Of a DNA stretch of 10,294 nucleotides, positions 1,006 through 9,014 are shown in pieces. The position numbers were made by a program, and so were the translations under genes. The DNA comes from Streptomyces roseochromogenus subsp. oscitans DS 12.976. GTDB taxonomy: Bacteria; Actinomycetota; Actinomycetes; Streptomycetales; Streptomycetaceae. The stretch spans positions 4,846,263 through 4,856,556 of the forward strand of contig NZ_CM002285.1 in NCBI RefSeq assembly GCF_000497445.1, given 5' to 3'. Within the stretch, counting starts at the first letter, position 1. Each line of letters opens with the position of its first letter. The notes beneath the pieces are model-generated. The model saw only the letters and a list, made by a program, of their open reading frames with translations, was not told the DNA's origin and searched no databases.

Positions 1006-1323
1006 ATGGCAAGCATCCGTACCGCCCGCGTACTCGCCGCCGTCGCCGCTCTCCCCCTCGCAGCCGCGCTCTTCAGTGGCGTCGCGGCCGCCGACAACGG
1101 CTCCTTCGCGGGCAACGGATCGAGCGCCAACACCGGTGTGGCGGGTGTCATCGGCAGCGGAGTCGGCCACAACAACTTCGGCAACTCGTCCACCACGCAG
1201 CAGAACGCGGTCGGCAACGGTGCCTCGAACCAGAGCAACACCGCCCAGGTCAACGACTCCGCGTTCGCACCCGTCCAGCAGGGCAACGAGAACGTGGCCG
1301 TCGACTTCACCCACCTGTGGTGA
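1006..1323 (+). CDS. Small secreted Asn/Gly/Ser-rich protein, possibly self-assembling
   Basis: This 105-residue protein has a classical Sec signal peptide: a short positive N-terminus (R5, R8), a hydrophobic core (VLAAVAALPLAAALF) and an A-A-A signal peptidase I site, so cleavage after residue 29 is likely. The 76-residue mature part has no cysteine, is about a quarter Asn plus Gln, and is rich in Gly and Ser. Its second half contains spaced Q and N residues; S85-x5-Q91-x4-N96 fits the core of the curlin repeat, and Q66/N71/Q76 echoes it. It ends in aromatic FTHLW. The start is set by GGAGG at 994-998, seven bases from the ATG. It is not a chaplin (no chaplin hydrophobic domain) and not a recognisable rodlin. 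Export is well supported; a surface-structural or amyloid-like role is my inference. It is a single-gene unit closed by hairpins downstream. Confidence 0.8.
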   Translation: MASIRTARVLAAVAALPLAAALFSGVAAADNGSFAGNGSSANTGVAGVIGSGVGHNNFGNSSTTQQNAVGNGASNQSNTAQVNDSAFAPVQQGNENVAVDFTHLW

Positions 1324-1477: not shown

Positions 1478-1506
1478 TTGACACCTACCAGTATCTGACG
1501 GACAGT
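1478..1506 (+). promoter_or_regulatory. Candidate promoter of the igr-like operon
   Basis: A perfect TTGACA (1478-1483) is followed, after 17 bases, by GACAGT (1501-1506), a poor -10 that keeps only the A at position 2 and the T at position 6. The -10 lies inside the inverted-repeat cluster at 1495-1525. If used, transcription would begin near 1512 and leave a leader of about 40 bases before the GTG start. Confidence 0.4.
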
Positions 1507-1525
1507 CAGAAACTGTCCCTGTCAG
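1495..1525. promoter_or_regulatory. Nested inverted repeats: candidate operator or leader hairpin
   Basis: Inner arms GGACAGT (1500-1506) and ACTGTCC (1512-1518) are perfect with a 5-base centre. Outer arms CTGAC (1495-1499) and GTCAG (1521-1525) extend the same symmetry with one asymmetric bulge. A second dyad, CTGAC-N5-GTCAG (1495-1509), overlaps it. The cluster covers the candidate -10 and start point and ends 26 bases before the GTG start, a suitable place for a repressor of the TetR or GntR kind. No regulator gene is adjacent. Confidence 0.5.
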
Positions 1526-1551: not shown

Positions 1552-2748
1552 GTGCACCTCGCCCCCACGGAGCGGCAGCAGCGTCTGCGCGCCGAACTCC
1601 GCGCCTACTTCCGTGAAGTGCTGCCCGACTCCCTCGCACCCGCCGACCTCCCTGAACCCACTGACCCCGCTGACCCCCCTGAACCCACCGACGCCCGCGC
1701 CCTGTTGCGCCGCATCGGTGCCGACGGCTGGCTGGGTATCGGCTGGCCGGTCGAATATGGCGGCCAGGGCCGGGGCGCGGACGAGCAGTTCGTGTTCTTC
1801 GACGAGGCGAACCGGGCCGGCGCCCCGGTCTCCATGGTCACGCTCAACACCGTCGGCCCCACCCTCATGCGGTACGGCAGCGAGGCGCAGAAGGCCCACT
1901 TTCTGCCCCGCATCCTCAGCGGCGAGGCCGTCTTCGCGATCGGCTACACCGAGCCCTCCGCCGGCACCGACCTGGCCTCCCTGCGCACCCGCGCCGTGCG
2001 CGAGGGCGGCGGCTGGCGGATCGACGGTCAGAAGATCTTCACCTCGGGCGCCCAGTACGCCGACTGGATCTGGCTGGCCTGCCGAACCGACCCGGAGGCG
2101 CCCAAGCACCAGGGCATCTCCATTCTCCTCGTCCCGACCGACGCGCCGGGGTTCTCCTGGACGCCGATCGAGACGGTGGGCGGCCGGACGACGACGGCCA
2201 CCTATTACGACGGCGTCCGCGTCCCGTCCCGGAACCTGGTCGGCGCCGAGAACGAGGGCTGGTCGCTGATCACCGGCCAGCTCAACCACGAGCGGGTCGC
2301 GCTGGCCGCCCTCGGCATGCAGGCCGAGGACTTCCTCGCCGCCGCGCTCACCGCCGCCCGTTCACCCGATCCGGTGAATCCACGACGCCGGATCGATGAG
2401 CCGTGGGTGCGTCTGCGGGCCGCCGAGGTGCATGCCCGGCTGGCGGCGAATCGCCTGCTCAGCTGGCGTTTGGTGGCCGACGTGGGAGCGGGCCGACTGG
2501 CTCCGGGCGAGGCGAGCGGCGTGAAATTCGCGGGAACGGAATCGACTGTCGCGACGTATCGCATGTGTCAGGAGATCGCGGGCGAGGCTGGACTGGTCCG
2601 CTCCGGCTCCCCGGGAGCCTTCGGGGACGGCGAGCTGGAACGGCTGAACAGGGCGGCGCAGATCAACACGTTCGGGGGCGGGGTGAGCGAGGTGCAGCGG
2701 GAGATCGTCGCGACGATGCGGCTCGGGATGAGGAGGGGACGGCGATGA
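1552..2748 (+). CDS. fadE29: FadE29-like acyl-CoA dehydrogenase subunit (ChsE2 type)
   Basis: From GTG 1552 the product has 398 residues and starts MHLAPTERQQRLRAELRAYF, like FadE29 of Mycobacterium tuberculosis. In that organism FadE29 pairs with FadE28 as an alpha2-beta2 flavoenzyme that dehydrogenates the three-carbon side chain of a steroid CoA thioester. The protein shows the acyl-CoA dehydrogenase FAD/substrate loop GYTEPSAGTDLAS (132-144), the likely catalytic glutamate in QLNHERVALA (E247) and a C-terminal FGGGVSEVQREI (374-385). It lacks the usual R-x-QFG motif in the C-terminal helical domain; FadE28 downstream supplies it, as expected for a split active site. A Pro/Asp/Thr-rich insertion near residues 33-47 comes from a 27-base repeat. 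The stop overlaps the next start (ATGA). First gene of the operon. Family assignment is firm; the substrate is inferred. Confidence 0.88.
   Translation: MHLAPTERQQRLRAELRAYFREVLPDSLAPADLPEPTDPADPPEPTDARALLRRIGADGWLGIGWPVEYGGQGRGADEQFVFFDEANRAGAPVSMVTLNTVGPTLMRYGSEAQKAHFLPRILSGEAVFAIGYTEPSAGTDLASLRTRAVREGGGWRIDGQKIFTSGAQYADWIWLACRTDPEAPKHQGISILLVPTDAPGFSWTPIETVGGRTTTATYYDGVRVPSRNLVGAENEGWSLITGQLNHERVALAALGMQAEDFLAAALTAARSPDPVNPRRRIDEPWVRLRAAEVHARLAANRLLSWRLVADVGAGRLAPGEASGVKFAGTESTVATYRMCQEIAGEAGLVRSGSPGAFGDGELERLNRAAQINTFGGGVSEVQREIVATMRLGMRRGRR
1651..1695 (+). repeat. 27-base imperfect tandem repeat inside fadE29
   Basis: CCTGAACCCA begins at 1651 and again at 1678, with matching flanks ending in TGACCCC or CGACGCC. 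It encodes two copies of P-E-P-T-D separated by P-A-D-P in a surface linker between the first helices. It looks like a local slippage duplication and keeps the frame. Confidence 0.7.
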
Positions 2749-3701
2749 GCGGGGGAAGCGGTGAGCCGCAGGCCGGGCGCATGCTGGACGAGGACGCGGT
2801 GGGGGCGCGGCTCAAGGGGTACGAGGGGCGGCCCGCGGCTGTCGCCGGGGTGGGGAAGGACCCGGTCAACCTGCCCATGATCCGGCACTGGTGCGAGGCC
2901 ATGGGCGACACCAACCCGGCCTACACGGGCCCGGACGCCATCGCCCCGCCCACCATGCTCCAGGCCTGGACGATGGGTGGCCTGTCCGGCCACGAGGGCC
3001 GCACGGGTGCCTACGACGACCTGCTGTCCCTCCTCGACGCCTCGGGCTGTACGTCGGTCGTGGCCACCGACTGCGAGCAGGAGTATCTGCGGCCCCTGCG
3101 CCCGGGCGACGAGGTCACGTTCGACACGGTGATCGAGTCGGTGTCGGAACGGAAGACGACGAAGCTGGGCACGGGATATTTCGTCACGACCCGCACGGAC
3201 GTCCGGGCCGCCGGCCGGCTGGTGGGCACACACCGCTTCCGCATCCTCAAGTACGCCCCGGCCCGCCGCACACCCCCGGCCCCGCGTCCCCGCCCGGTGG
3301 TCAACCGGGACAACGCCGGCTTCTGGGCGGCGGCGGCCGAAGGACGGCTCCTCATCCAGCGCTGCACGGACTGCGGCACCCTGCGCCACCCCTGGCTGCC
3401 GGGCTGCAACGCGTGCGGCTGTCTGGAGTGGGACACGGTCGAGGCGAGCGGCGAGGGCACGGTCTACTCGTACGTGGTCATGCACCACCCGCCCTTCCCG
3501 GCCTTCGAGCCGCCTTACGCGGTGGGTCTGATCGAACTCGCCGAGGGCGTGCGGATGGTGAGCAACGTCGTGGGGGTGCCGTACGACAAGGTGCGGATCG
3601 GGCTTCCGGTGCGCCTGGAGTTCCGGCGATACGGGGACGAGGGGGACGACGAGGGCACGCTGGTGCTGCCGGTCTTCCGGGTCGTCGAGGGCGAGGGCTG
3701 A
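2745..3701 (+). CDS. chsH2: ChsH2-like protein: MaoC hot-dog domain fused to DUF35 zinc-ribbon/OB-fold
   Basis: The 318-residue product (ATG 2745, AGGAGG at 2731-2736, 4-base ATGA overlap with fadE29) has two domains. Residues about 1-170 are a MaoC-like hot-dog fold with GDTNPAY (54-60), where the catalytic His of the hydratase motif is replaced (Y60). Residues about 190-318 are DUF35: a rubredoxin-like zinc ribbon with C207, C210, C221 and C224, then an OB fold (EGTVYSYVVMHHPP). This order and length match ChsH2 of M. tuberculosis (about 311 residues). There the MaoC half forms the enoyl-CoA hydratase with ChsH1, which holds the catalytic residues, and the DUF35 half docks Ltp2 and is needed for its aldolase activity. 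The missing His fits a non-catalytic, substrate-binding half. Assignment is firm. Confidence 0.9.
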   Translation: MSGGSGEPQAGRMLDEDAVGARLKGYEGRPAAVAGVGKDPVNLPMIRHWCEAMGDTNPAYTGPDAIAPPTMLQAWTMGGLSGHEGRTGAYDDLLSLLDASGCTSVVATDCEQEYLRPLRPGDEVTFDTVIESVSERKTTKLGTGYFVTTRTDVRAAGRLVGTHRFRILKYAPARRTPPAPRPRPVVNRDNAGFWAAAAEGRLLIQRCTDCGTLRHPWLPGCNACGCLEWDTVEASGEGTVYSYVVMHHPPFPAFEPPYAVGLIELAEGVRMVSNVVGVPYDKVRIGLPVRLEFRRYGDEGDDEGTLVLPVFRVVEGEG

Positions 3702-3702
3702 C

Positions 3703-4731
3703 ATGGACTTCACGCCCACCGAGGCCCAGACCGAGGCCCGTGACCTGGCCGCTCGGATCTTCGGCGACCTCGCTACGCATGACCGGCTGAAGGCCGCCGG
3801 AACGGGCAGCGACCCGGAGCTGTGGAAGGCCCTGTGCGCGGCCGGGCTGGTGGCCGCGGCGGAGGAACTCGGCCTGCTGGGGCTGGTGCTGCTCCTGGAG
3901 GAACAGGGACGGACGACGGCCCAGGTGCCGTATGCGGCGAGCTGTGTGTACGGGGTGCTCGCCCTCACCGCGCACGGCAGTGCGGAGCAGCGGGGCAGGC
4001 TGCTTCCGGCGGTCGAGGACGGCTCGGCGGTGGTGGCGGGGGCGTTTCCCGCGCAGACCGGTGTACGGGCCTCGGCACGGGGTGAGCTGACCGGCACGGT
4101 GCCCGTCGTCCCCTGGCTGCGGGACGCCACCCATGTACTGGTCGCCGACGCCGGGCGGCAGCTGTGGCTGGTGCCACTCGGGGAGGGCACCGGGATCGAG
4201 GAGGTCGAGCTGACGGCCCCCTGGTCGGCGGGACGGCTCACCTTGGAAGGCGCGTGGGCCGAGCCGCTCGGCCCCGGCACCGGTGCCTACACCGACGTCC
4301 TGGCCACCGCCCGCACCGCCTTCGCCGGGCTCCAGGCGGGCGTCTGCGCGGGCTCCCTCGTCCGGGCCGTCGCGCACACCAACACCCGGGAGCAGTTCGG
4401 GCGCCCGCTCGCCAACCGGCAGGCCGTCCAACTGCGCGCCGCCGACGCCCACATGGACACCGAGGCGATACGGGTGACGGCCTACGAGGCCGCCTGGCGG
4501 CGGGACGCCGGGTTGCCGTACGCCACGCACGCGCTGACGGCTGCCTGGTGGGCGTCCGAGGCGGGACACCGCGTCGTGCACACGGGCCAGCATCTGCACG
4601 GCGGGGCGGGAGCCGACCTTGACCATCCGGTGCACCGGCACTTCCTGTGGGGCCGGCAGCTGGACGCGTATCTGGGCTGTGGGGCCGAAGTGCTCCAGGA
4701 ACTGGGGGAGTTGATCGCAAATGGGGAGTGA
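3703..4731 (+). CDS. fadE28: FadE28-like acyl-CoA dehydrogenase subunit (ChsE1 type)
   Basis: This 342-residue protein starts one base after the chsH2 stop and matches the short FadE28 type (about 339 residues). It keeps the flavin-binding TREQFGRPLANRQAVQ (228-243) and the C-terminal QHLHGGAGADLDHPVHRHF (296-314) of acyl-CoA dehydrogenases. It lacks the T-E-P-x-x-G-T-D loop (GAFPAQTGVRAS at 113-124 instead), and no Glu stands where FadE29 has its catalytic base (TAFAGLQAGVCAGS, 205-218). It should therefore be the flavin-contributing, non-catalytic partner in a FadE28/FadE29 heterotetramer. By the mycobacterial model the pair oxidises the C17 propionyl-CoA side chain to the 17(20)-ene. Its own end overlaps chsH1 by 11 bases. 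The gene order differs from mycobacteria, where fadE28 precedes fadE29. Confidence 0.87.
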   Translation: MDFTPTEAQTEARDLAARIFGDLATHDRLKAAGTGSDPELWKALCAAGLVAAAEELGLLGLVLLLEEQGRTTAQVPYAASCVYGVLALTAHGSAEQRGRLLPAVEDGSAVVAGAFPAQTGVRASARGELTGTVPVVPWLRDATHVLVADAGRQLWLVPLGEGTGIEEVELTAPWSAGRLTLEGAWAEPLGPGTGAYTDVLATARTAFAGLQAGVCAGSLVRAVAHTNTREQFGRPLANRQAVQLRAADAHMDTEAIRVTAYEAAWRRDAGLPYATHALTAAWWASEAGHRVVHTGQHLHGGAGADLDHPVHRHFLWGRQLDAYLGCGAEVLQELGELIANGE

Positions 4732-5140
4732 GGGCGCGGCGGTGCTGCGCGTGGGTGCCGAACTGCCGCCGCTGCAGATCCCGGTCACGCGCACGCTGAT
4801 CGTGGCGGGGGCGATCGCGTCCCGCGACTACCAGGACGTGCATCACGACGCGGAGCTGGCCAGGCAGAAGGGCTCACCGGACGTCTTCATGAACATCCTG
4901 ACGACGAACGGCCTCGTCGGCAGATACATCACGGACCACTTCGGGCCGGCGGCGGTGCTCCGCAAGGTCGCCATCCGGCTCGGGGCGCCCAACTACCCGG
5001 GGGACACGATGGTGCTGACCGGCAGGATCGAGGAGGTCGACGGCGACACTGCGACCGTGCGGGTCGTCGGCGCCAACGGCAGCGGCCGGCATGTGACCGG
5101 GACGGTGACGGTCACCGTCCCTGCCGGAGACGCGTCATGA
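4721..5140 (+). CDS. chsH1: ChsH1-like MaoC enoyl-CoA hydratase subunit
   Basis: A 139-residue single hot-dog protein matching ChsH1 (about 129 residues in M. tuberculosis). The motif ASRDYQDVHHD (33-43) carries D36 and H41, which align with the Asp and His known to be catalytic in ChsH1 (D29 and H34 in the mycobacterial protein). Further conserved stretches are VFMNILTTNGLVGRYITDHFGP (56-77) and the beta strands ending TGTVTVTVP. With ChsH2 it should hydrate the alpha,beta-enoyl-CoA made by FadE28/FadE29, giving a tertiary alcohol. The ATG at 4721 lies in the end of fadE28, with GGGGGAG about 10 bases upstream; GTG 4742 is an alternative that would match the mycobacterial N-terminus better. 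The stop overlaps the ltp2 start (ATGA). A perfect inverted repeat lies within its last codons. Confidence 0.88.
   Translation: MGSEGAAVLRVGAELPPLQIPVTRTLIVAGAIASRDYQDVHHDAELARQKGSPDVFMNILTTNGLVGRYITDHFGPAAVLRKVAIRLGAPNYPGDTMVLTGRIEEVDGDTATVRVVGANGSGRHVTGTVTVTVPAGDAS
5099..5121. repeat. Perfect 23-base inverted repeat at the end of chsH1
   Basis: Arms GGGACGGTGAC (5099-5109) and GTCACCGTCCC (5111-5121) are exact complements around one G. As RNA it could fold into a 10-bp stem with a 3-base loop, ending 15 bases before the ltp2 ATG. It encodes the repetitive GTVTVTVP strand, so part of the symmetry may follow from alternating Thr and Val codons. Confidence 0.7.
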
Positions 5141-6303
5141 GCGCCCGGGCGCGGGACACCCTGGGCGGGCGTGCGGCGATCGCCGGGATCGGGGCCACCG
5201 AGTTCTCCAAGGACTCCGGGCGCAGCGAGCTGCGGCTGGCCGTGGAGGCGGTGCGGGCCGCGCTGGACGACGCGGGGCTGGCGCCGGCGGACGTGGACGG
5301 GATGGTGACCTTCACGATGGACACCAACCCGGAGATCACGGTGGCCCAGGCCTGCGGGATGGGCGAGCTGTCCTTCTTCTCCCGGGTCCACTACGGCGGC
5401 GGCGCGGCCTGCGCGACCGTGCTCCAGGCGGCGCTCGCGGTGGCGACGGGCGTGGCGGAGGTGGTCGTCTGCTACCGCGCCTTCAATGAACGCTCGGGCC
5501 GCAGATTCGGTGCGGGTGTGCAGCACCGGGAGCCGTCGGCGGAGGGCACCGCGCTCGGCTGGATGCTGCCGTTCGGACTGCTCACCCCGGCTTCCTGGGT
5601 GGCGATGGCGGCCCAGCGGTATCTGCACGCGTACGGGCTGACGCCGGAGGCGTTCGGGCATGTGGCCGTGCTGGACCGCGGATACGCGGCGACGAACCCT
5701 GCGGCGTACTTCCACGGCCGCCCCATCACGCTCGCCGAGCACGCGGCGTCCCGCTGGATCGTGGAGCCGTTGCGGCTGCTGGACTGCTGTCAGGAGACCG
5801 ACGGCGGCCAGGCGATCGTCGTCACCTCCCTGGAGCGGGCCCGGGACCTGCGGCGTCCGCCCGCCGTGATCGCGGCGGCGGCCCAGGGCGCGGGCCGGGC
5901 GCAGGAGCAGATGACCAGCTTCTACCGGGACGATCTGACCGGCCTGCCGGAGATGGGAGTGGTGGCCCGGCAGCTCTGGCGCACCTCCGGACTCGGCCCG
6001 GCCGACATCGACGTGGGGATCCTGTACGACCACTTCACGCCGTTCGTGCTGATGCAGCTGGAGGAGTTCGGGTTCTGCGGGAAGGGGGAGGCGGCGGACT
6101 TCGTGGCCGAGGAGCGGCTGCCGCTCAACACCCATGGGGGCCAGCTCGGCGAGGCCTATCTGCACGGGATGAACGGCATGGCGGAAGCGGTACGCCAGCT
6201 GCGGGGTACGGCGGTGAACCAGATACCGGGTGCGACCCGAACCCTGGTGACGGCCGGCACGGGCGTCCCGACATCGGGCTTGATCCTGACGGCTGACGGC
6301 TGA
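5137..6303 (+). CDS. ltp2: Ltp2-like thiolase-superfamily retro-aldolase
   Basis: The 388-residue protein belongs to the thiolase-fold lipid-transfer family and is very close in length and motifs to Ltp2 of the igr operon (about 386 residues). Ltp2 splits the hydrated C17 side chain by a retro-aldol reaction, giving propionyl-CoA and a 17-ketosteroid, and works only with the DUF35 domain of ChsH2. Seen here: AIAGIGATEFSKDSGRSELRLA (14-35), HYGGGAACATVLQAALAVATG (85-105, with C92 where thiolases have their nucleophile), RLLDCCQETDGG (213-224), GILYDHFTPF (294-303, Y297) and HGGQLGEAYLHGMNG (333-347, Y341). The two tyrosines appear to match those reported as catalytic in characterised Ltp2 (about Tyr294 and Tyr344, from memory). 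It starts in the ATGA overlap with chsH1 and is the last operon gene; its final codons lie in a heptad repeat. Orthology is strongly supported; the substrate is not proven. Confidence 0.9.
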   Translation: MSARARDTLGGRAAIAGIGATEFSKDSGRSELRLAVEAVRAALDDAGLAPADVDGMVTFTMDTNPEITVAQACGMGELSFFSRVHYGGGAACATVLQAALAVATGVAEVVVCYRAFNERSGRRFGAGVQHREPSAEGTALGWMLPFGLLTPASWVAMAAQRYLHAYGLTPEAFGHVAVLDRGYAATNPAAYFHGRPITLAEHAASRWIVEPLRLLDCCQETDGGQAIVVTSLERARDLRRPPAVIAAAAQGAGRAQEQMTSFYRDDLTGLPEMGVVARQLWRTSGLGPADIDVGILYDHFTPFVLMQLEEFGFCGKGEAADFVAEERLPLNTHGGQLGEAYLHGMNGMAEAVRQLRGTAVNQIPGATRTLVTAGTGVPTSGLILTADG

Positions 6304-6618: not shown

Positions 6619-7212
6619 ATGACCACACCCGTCTGCACCAGCGCCTCGGCCGCCGCCGCACCAAGGCGGCAGACCCTCCCCCACCCCCGGCTCCAGGCGG
6701 GCGGGGAGGCTCCCGCGTACCCGTCGTTCGCGTCGTATGTGCGAGCCCGCCAGCCGGTCCTGCTGCGCACCGCGCGCTCGCTGACCGCGAACCTGAGCGA
6801 CGCCGAGGACCTGCTGCAGACCGCGCTCGCCAAGACCTATGTGGCCTGGGAGCGGATCGAGGACCAGCGGGCGCTCGACGGCTATGTGCGCCGCGCGCTG
6901 CTGAACACCCGGACCTCGCAGTGGCGCAAGCGCAGGGTGGAAGAGTTCTCCTGTGACGAGCTGCCCGAGCCGGAGCCCGTGCCCGGTGACGACGACCCGG
7001 CCGAGCGGCAGGCGCTGCACGACGCCATGTGGCGGGCGGTCATGAAACTCCCGGCACGCCAGCGGGCGATGGTCGTCCTGCGGTACTACGAGGACCTCAG
7101 CGAGGCCCAGACCGCCGAGTTGCTCGGGGTGTCGGTCGGCACGGTGAAGTCGGCGGTGTCGCGTGCGCTGGGCAAGCTGCGCGAGGACCCTGAGCTGGGA
7201 CTGGTGCGCTAG
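6619..7212 (+). CDS. SigE-family (ECF-type) RNA polymerase sigma factor
   Basis: A 197-residue sigma-70 family protein of the actinobacterial SigE-like group. Sigma region 2 covers about residues 36-104 (YVRARQPVLLRTARSL, then LSDAEDLLQTALAKTYVAWERI), with the basic -10-binding segment RRALLNTRTSQWRKRR (91-106). Sigma region 4 covers about 131-188, with the helix-turn-helix LSEAQTAELLGVSVGTVKSAVSRALGKLR (160-188) that reads the -35 element. Such factors direct RNA polymerase to a small regulon. The first 35 residues are an Ala/Pro-rich extension, longer than in most relatives, so the real start could be later, though no other good start is visible in that segment. No anti-sigma gene follows, and no SnoaL-like C-terminal domain is present. 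It lies between the igr-like operon and fadD on the same strand; whether it controls either is unknown. Confidence 0.88.
   Translation: MTTPVCTSASAAAAPRRQTLPHPRLQAGGEAPAYPSFASYVRARQPVLLRTARSLTANLSDAEDLLQTALAKTYVAWERIEDQRALDGYVRRALLNTRTSQWRKRRVEEFSCDELPEPEPVPGDDDPAERQALHDAMWRAVMKLPARQRAMVVLRYYEDLSEAQTAELLGVSVGTVKSAVSRALGKLREDPELGLVR

Positions 7213-7358: not shown

Positions 7359-9014
<1,656 letters not shown>

Follow-up and report, generated by a model that had tools for sequence, protein, structure and literature searches.

Five adjacent genes in a 10,294-nucleotide stretch of the chromosome of Streptomyces roseochromogenus subsp. oscitans DS 12.976 (the window) encode all five of the enzyme types of the igr operon, and they probably carry out the last stage (C22 to C19) in the breakdown of sterol side chains, by a pathway with genes at many separate places on the Streptomyces chromosome. 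In this pathway, CYP125 would oxidize the end of the sterol tail, and a FadE26-like dehydrogenase and the thiolase FadA5 would run the earlier rounds of β-oxidation. FadE28-FadE29 would then desaturate 2-(steroid-17-yl)propionyl-CoA, ChsH1-ChsH2 would hydrate the product, and Ltp2 would cleave off propionyl-CoA to give a 17-keto steroid. Most of the sampled Streptomyces that carry the module might use only the tail, because markers for ring opening are missing from their genomes. This strain, which has a ring-degradation cluster, could go further. A preliminary description of the window had presented the module as isolated. The observation was real but misframed: most of the sampled Streptomyces carry a dispersed sterol pathway, usually without ring markers, and the module is most likely its final step on the side chain.

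The genes lie on the plus strand in the order fadE29-chsH2-fadE28-chsH1-ltp2, and neighboring genes overlap or stand 1 base apart. They encode a FadE29-like acyl-CoA dehydrogenase subunit (1552..2748), a ChsH2-like protein with a MaoC-type hydratase half and a DUF35 part (zinc ribbon and OB fold; 2745..3701), a FadE28-like acyl-CoA dehydrogenase subunit (3703..4731), a ChsH1-like MaoC hydratase subunit (4721..5140), and an Ltp2-like retro-aldolase with a thiolase fold (5137..6303). The first and last assignments also draw on the trees described below. The window's Ltp2 scores 667 bits against NF005892 (cut-off 469), and its top match in the PDB is chain A of 6ok1 (565 bits), which is Ltp2 from Thermomonospora curvata (PMC12329534). 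The Ltp2-DUF35 pair in 6ok1 is among the closest solved relatives of the window's proteins (565 and 152 bits). The top solved matches for FadE29 and FadE28 are from T. curvata as well (Tcur3483 at 423 bits and Tcur3481 at 215 bits), and the closest solved relatives of the hydratase are the ChsH1-ChsH2 chains 4wnb and 4w78.

In the alignments, the RDxxDVHH stretch of ChsH1 and the glutamate of QLNHER and the GGG loop of the dehydrogenase, which we take to have catalytic roles, are kept in the window's proteins. So are Tyr294 (within YDHF) and Tyr344 (within GEAY), which are reported to be the catalytic residues of T. curvata Ltp2 (PMC12329534). These matches agree with the preliminary description, which had listed five overlapping igr-type genes in this order with their key residues kept. 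The assignment of the five genes as igr-type enzymes stands, and they are predicted to act on a C22 steroid CoA ester and release propionyl-CoA.

Steroid genes elsewhere in the genome and across Streptomyces

The preliminary description saw no cyp125 and no ring-degradation gene. This is correct for the window, and no ring genes or other steroid genes were called near the module in C1:4806-4886 kb. It is not correct for the genome, where KshA, HsaA, HsaD, CYP125, and a FadE26-like protein, all of which that description had proposed to search for, are encoded elsewhere. The genome's CYP125 (C1:6873428-6874663) is 58.6% identical over 408 residues to our query, a P450 with the CYP125 motif that adjoins the classical igr operon in G323. 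(Genomes have G-numbers and loci have L-numbers.) An impression that the genome has no CYP125, which came from looking for a heme motif, was overturned by using a real CYP125 as the query. FadA5 (690 bits against NF005889, the model for steroid 3-ketoacyl-CoA thiolase, cut-off 515) is encoded divergently from cyp125, 246 bases away; such a divergent pair is known in mycobacteria. The FadE26-like protein (C1:8684581-8685759) scores 449 bits against the M. tuberculosis chain, versus 371 bits for the window's FadE29.

About 4.6 Mb from the module, there is a 9,10-seco-type ring cluster (C1:216-259 kb; L014-L016). It includes KshA (C1:239813-240436; 305 bits against PF19298) and proteins that exceed the cut-offs (given in parentheses) for HsaA at 621 bits (450), HsaD at 479 bits (400), FadD3 at 684 bits (657), and a FadA6-type thiolase at 719 bits (591). 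HsaF- and HsaG-type enzymes are above their cut-offs, and KstD-, HsaC-, and IpdE2-like proteins are below theirs. The KshA protein and the putative IpdA and IpdB had no match in NCBIfam at the thresholds used; in our reading, the cluster also includes KshB, HsaB, and IpdAB. Two copies of HsaA are over the cut-off, and KstD-like genes number at least two. Unlike in G195, G179, and G155, the ring cluster has no igr copy called within it.

The genome also encodes a second protein of the Ltp2 family, ltpB (C1:5309698-5310852), which scores 580 bits against the Ltp2 model and has YDAF in place of YDHF. Its neighbors (C1:5308512-5312557; L184 and L185) are a DUF35-like partner, an enoyl-CoA hydratase-like gene, and a FadD3-family ligase.

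Across 246 genomes from the genus Streptomyces, Ltp2 (NF005892) is over the cut-off in 172. CYP125 (E ≤ 1e-120) is found in 168 genomes, and all 168 of these have Ltp2 (Fisher p 1e-58, uncorrected for kinship). Just 4 of the 172 genomes with Ltp2 lack CYP125 (G008, G144, G195, and G205). The 172 matches are a mix of the window's kind of Ltp2 and the 580-bit paralogue ltpB. Setting aside five genomes in which ltpB seems to be the sole copy, as well as G195, whose core site is empty, leaves 166 genomes with the window's kind. In this set, 163 have CYP125, and 147 have neither of our two markers for ring degradation, KshA and HsaA. In most genomes with the core locus, then, the module is isolated from ring genes, as the preliminary description had it, but this genome has both a ring cluster and CYP125. 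Over all 246 genomes, KshA (at least 260 bits) and HsaA (over the cut-off) were each found in 21 and one or the other in 22, and 20 of these 22 have CYP125.

We searched for FadE26 in 46 chosen genomes. All 21 of the searched genomes that have both Ltp2 and CYP125 gave a FadE26-like match of 424 bits or more, and none of the 22 searched genomes without Ltp2 over the cut-off did (one of these has a match of 215 bits). G144 was negative, and G195 gave a T. curvata-type FadE29 at 402 bits. In one draw of genomes, 18 from Streptomyces had the window's kind of Ltp2, and all 18 also had ltpB over the cut-off.

To see whether kinship alone accounts for the co-occurrence, we used a tree of the ligase gene that adjoins the module site in 37 genomes chosen because their state was known. 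(G064 and G068 were dropped, as the ligase is outside the sequence retrieved for them; G090, G093, and G109 are less than half filled.) The state of the module changes 10 times on the best tree and at least 4 times as judged by the starred branches. Co-loss of CYP125 and the module looks repeated, but no significant result can be had from these 37 genomes alone.

The substrate might instead be some other polycyclic acid whose tail is branched in the same way. The chief candidates are the hopanoids of Streptomyces, where an E-ring CH(CH3)COOH would give trisnorhopanone and propionyl-CoA. The chemistry of the tail would fit, and none of the 12 genomes that lack squalene-hopene cyclase have Ltp2 over the cut-off (Fisher p 3e-7, uncorrected for kinship). 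The cyclase is nearly universal (over the cut-off in 234 of 246 genomes), so it is weakly informative about the substrate. Also, hopanoids alone do not explain the presence of the module, since 62 of the genomes with the cyclase are without Ltp2 over the cut-off. The tight partners of the module are CYP125, FadA5, and the FadE26-like protein, and a CYP125 from Streptomyces is reported to act on cholesterol (PMC9728343). We consider such an acid, hopanoids included, to be a quite improbable substrate.

A shared palindrome and a fixed cassette site

The palindrome TCTGACGGACAGTCAGA is at 1494..1510, 41 bases before the start codon of fadE29, and might be an operator. The hexamer TTGACA (1478..1483, plus strand) starts 16 bases before it and may be the -35 element of a promoter. 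The palindrome fits the pattern TCTGAYGGNCNRTCAGA with 0 mismatches. With at most one mismatch, this pattern is found in the 700 bases that precede the operon at 95 of 104 operon loci (94 in a first scan; the recount assigns one more site to the operon), and at 88 of these 95 loci a TTGACA falls in the 20 bases ahead of the palindrome. At this level it is found in none of the 14 loci with an empty site, each of which was scanned whole (13-14 kb). Outside of the operon sites, the first scan of 2.04 Mb of loci found 2 further sites.

Of 16 genomes examined at cyp125, 14 have this form of the palindrome upstream of the gene, and the other two have sites with 2 and 3 mismatches. The site upstream of this strain's cyp125, GCTGATGGGCCGTCAGA, is a close variant of the operon site. 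In 406 kb of sequence from this genome, there are five sites with at most one mismatch: those of the operon and of cyp125, and C1:5316306, 5319277, and 8691595, with one mismatch each. Two Markov shuffles gave none. In our reading of the genes, the last three sites precede genes of amidohydrolase/LLM/SDR type and an IpdC-like gene that has an acyl-CoA ligase after it; these could be further members of the regulon. The gap between ltpB and fadD in this genome has two palindromes with 2 mismatches each, which are weak by themselves because sites at that level also turn up in shuffled sequence. In the corresponding gap, G095 has a one-mismatch palindrome and G218 has a two-mismatch one.

The preliminary description saw no KstR-type control. 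The motif TnnAACnnGTTnnA, which we take to be the consensus of the KstR operator, is not found with up to one mismatch at 1251-1560 of the window, and it is present in just 2 of 102 regions upstream of the operon. To that extent the claim holds; what it missed is the other conserved palindrome just upstream. Two copies of the KstR-type motif, with 1 mismatch, are found in all 16 of the cyp125-fadA5 gaps, and the exact motif is present upstream of fadE26 in 4 of 4 regions. We infer that the module may be controlled via the palindrome that it has in common with cyp125, which would be a putative operator.

The module is a cassette, inherited at a single fixed position. On its left is a small secreted protein (1006..1323, plus strand; no match in Pfam or NCBIfam), which we take to be a chaplin. 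On its right are a SigE-family sigma factor (6619..7212, plus strand; 208 bits against TIGR02983) and an acyl-CoA ligase (7359..9014, plus strand). We considered the ligase as a dedicated partner of the module and rejected this, since all 31 genomes examined carry the ligase, whether the module is present or absent. We examined the site in 13 of the 74 genomes without Ltp2 over the cut-off, and in G195. In all 14 cases the block is missing and the genes for the sigma factor and the ligase are present. In the 13 empty sites with a chaplin-like gene, 224-1354 bases separate it from the sigma factor gene; the other site, L251, has no match to the chaplin.

We used tblastn to count the architectures of 118 loci, which comprise the best 80 named loci (of at least 590) and genomes that we chose. 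There are 73 five-gene loci, 28 three-gene loci (chsH2-chsH1-ltp2), L089, 2 mixed loci, and 14 empty sites. In the three-gene loci, both fadE genes are missing, although their place is on either side of chsH2. Six chosen genomes with such loci have a single FadE26/29-type match each. L089 retains only ltp2 and a remnant of chsH2, with chsH1 and most of chsH2 gone. Among the mixed loci, L027 has a remnant (40%) of fadE29, and the contig of L029 begins 108 bases before the match to chsH2; for L073, which was counted as three-gene, the contig begins 347 bases before. The three named loci that are nearest to the window by Ltp2 are L026 and L028, which are three-gene loci, and L027.

These absences raise the question of whether the module is a decaying remainder of what was once a complete steroid pathway. 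The cassette is missing at the 14 examined sites, both fadE genes are gone from 28 loci, and L089 and L027 are down to remnants, as a leftover would predict. On the other hand, the window has five intact frames with the residues kept, Ltp2 is 85-96% identical among the best 80 named Streptomyces loci (of at least 590), the palindrome is kept at 95 of 104 loci, and the presence of the module tracks CYP125. Decay is a very improbable explanation.

Fungal sterols as a possible substrate

The substrate of the sterol side-chain pathway is perhaps fungal ergosterol. CYP125A13 from Streptomyces is reported to hydroxylate cholesterol at C27 in vitro (PMC9728343), and when S. lavendulae was grown with yeast, cyp125A13 was reportedly induced and most of the ergosterol was lost; with S. 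lividans, the sterols of yeast were little changed (PMC13170338). The CYP125 that tracks the module belongs to this family, which hydroxylates cholesterol and is induced on yeast (PMC9728343, PMC13170338). Branched sterol tails are reported to need the aldol-lyases Ltp3/Ltp4 (PMC6273163), so ltpB is a candidate for acting on the tail of ergosterol. In the portions of PMC9728343 and PMC13170338 drawn on here, we met no description of the steps after CYP125 and no instance of "fadE", nor of "side chain" in PMC13170338. Among the open-licence papers listed for FadA5/Ltp2 or for sterol-tail genes in Streptomyces, none describes the module in its title or abstract.

A broader proposal, which we give an even chance of being right, is that about two-thirds of Streptomyces species have a dispersed and co-regulated sterol-tail regulon, which would possess a separate operator and include an igr cassette that can be swapped. 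Most of them would never open the rings and would instead take propionyl-CoA and acetyl-CoA from fungal sterols, leaving a C19 17-keto steroid, and ltpB would deal with the C24 methyl branch of ergosterol.

Several points weigh against the sterol side-chain pathway. First, the co-occurrence is not free of kinship: in the ligase tree there are 4 independent supported pairs, and CYP125 changes in the same direction as the module in 3.8 of these on average and never in the opposite direction (p 0.125). Second, some genomes have one part without the other. Five genomes with CYP125 (G036, G073, G180, G201, and G224) seem to have only ltpB, as judged by the best E values among the matches listed, and in G205 both the module and FadE26 are present with no CYP125. 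Third, no FadE27 adjoins FadE26 in this genome; the best FadE27-like gene is 38-40% identical and unlinked, next to phenylacetate-type genes. The absence of ring degradation was judged by just two markers (KshA and HsaA), and our searches for side-chain genes covered the igr types, CYP125, FadA5, FadE26, and FadE27. Finally, the pattern for the palindrome was composed with the sites of the operon and of cyp125 already in view, so these sites are not independent tests of it. The palindrome is missing, at one mismatch or less, from 9 of the 104 operon loci (7 of the 9 have a site with 2 mismatches), and the three other sites in this genome are upstream of genes without a clear role. With 2 mismatches, there are 6 sites in the 406 kb versus 7 over two shuffles (3.5 per run).

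The preliminary description had suggested that the module might act on another branched isoprenoid or polycyclic acid, or finish a partial conversion of steroids. The co-occurrence with CYP125, the presence of FadA5 and the FadE26-like protein, and the palindrome weaken the case for an unrelated substrate, and the second suggestion is close to our best reading. In a survey from 2016, steroid pathways were scored as absent from 55 of 57 Streptomyces genomes (PMC4810484). If most carriers do consume only the tail, then surveys overlooked a side-chain pathway whose two best markers co-occur in 168 of 246 genomes, because its genes are scattered and mostly without ring genes. The pathway would also explain the fate of yeast sterols after the CYP125 step when Streptomyces prey on yeast, and would predict which species are capable of it. 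It would tie feeding on sterols to the supply of propionyl-CoA, and C19 steroids might be released in soil.

Relationships to known igr-type modules

In a tree of Ltp2, the proteins from the core locus of Streptomyces form their own clade (100/100), apart from a cholesterol-type clade and a T. curvata-type clade. The cholesterol-type clade has the classical gene order, and a P450 with the CYP125 motif adjoins the operon in G323 and G488. The T. curvata-type clade comprises T. curvata and copies from G195, G179, G155, G103, and G070. For the preliminary description, the trees give a mixed answer: the window's proteins fall among igr-type proteins, but in a Streptomyces-only clade that is outside of both of these clades. 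In a tree of FadE29, the window's kind is nearer to the T. curvata side, unlike Ltp2. Where readable, the copies that group with T. curvata have the window's gene order, which is also found in G471, G328, and G445. Because the T. curvata-type copies have this order and yet are in a separate clade, gene order alone says little about the substrate.

These relationships bear on whether this might be a module for bile acids (C24/C22 steroid acids) rather than for sterols. T. curvata is reported to have grown on cholate and not on cholesterol (PMC4810484). The window's FadE29 is on the T. curvata side of the tree, and the T. curvata-type copies share the window's gene order; those of G195, G179, and G155 are within about 14 kb of KshA, and that of G103 is beside HsaA- and HsaD-like genes. 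However, the window's Ltp2 is in its own clade instead of with these copies, and CYP125, which is needed for alkyl tails, tracks the module. Furthermore, G179, G155, and G103 hold both kinds at different places: these three and G070 also carry an Ltp2 of 669-674 bits, and the core locus was read in three of the four. A role in consuming bile acids seems unlikely.

Compared to the T. curvata-type module for removing C3, the window shares the order fadE29-chsH2-fadE28-chsH1-ltp2 (as seen in the kin copies, not in T. curvata's own locus), and its closest solved structures are from there (Tcur3481/Tcur3483 and TcLtp2-ChsH2). It differs in sequence from the copies in G195, G179, G155, G103, and G070, to which its FadE29 and ChsH2 are 46-55% identical and its Ltp2 is 68-70% identical. 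It is also far from ring genes, and no MaoC gene follows ltp2.

The igr operon of M. tuberculosis is chsE1-chsE2-chsH2-chsH1-ltp2 and belongs to the KstR regulon. The window has the same five enzyme types with the residues we examined, its genome has cyp125 back to back with FadA5, and KstR-type motifs are found at cyp125-fadA5 and fadE26, features that it has in common with M. tuberculosis. Unlike in M. tuberculosis, the gene order differs, the module is not by cyp125, and the operon has no KstR motif; the window's kind of Ltp2 and FadE29 form their own clades, in a genus that mostly lacks the ring markers. In terms of the sterol side-chain pathway of actinobacteria, this genome has CYP125, FadA5, and a FadE26-like protein, while its FadE27-like protein is distant and unlinked.

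We also noticed a few other arrangements. G488, G412, and G275, which are genomes of family f4, carry an igr-type copy (L211, L212, and L191) with the order fadE29-chsH2-fadE28-(chsH1)-ltp2. G488 and G275 have a second igr-type copy besides, and in G488 and G412 another P450 gene precedes the copy with this order. G103 has two KshA genes that are far apart (C1:717049-718200 and 5907953-5909131) as well as an igr-type cluster at 978-986 kb. In G007, a weak match to the KshA domain is split over C1:7-111 and 9958633-9959031, as if a circular record had been cut inside the gene.

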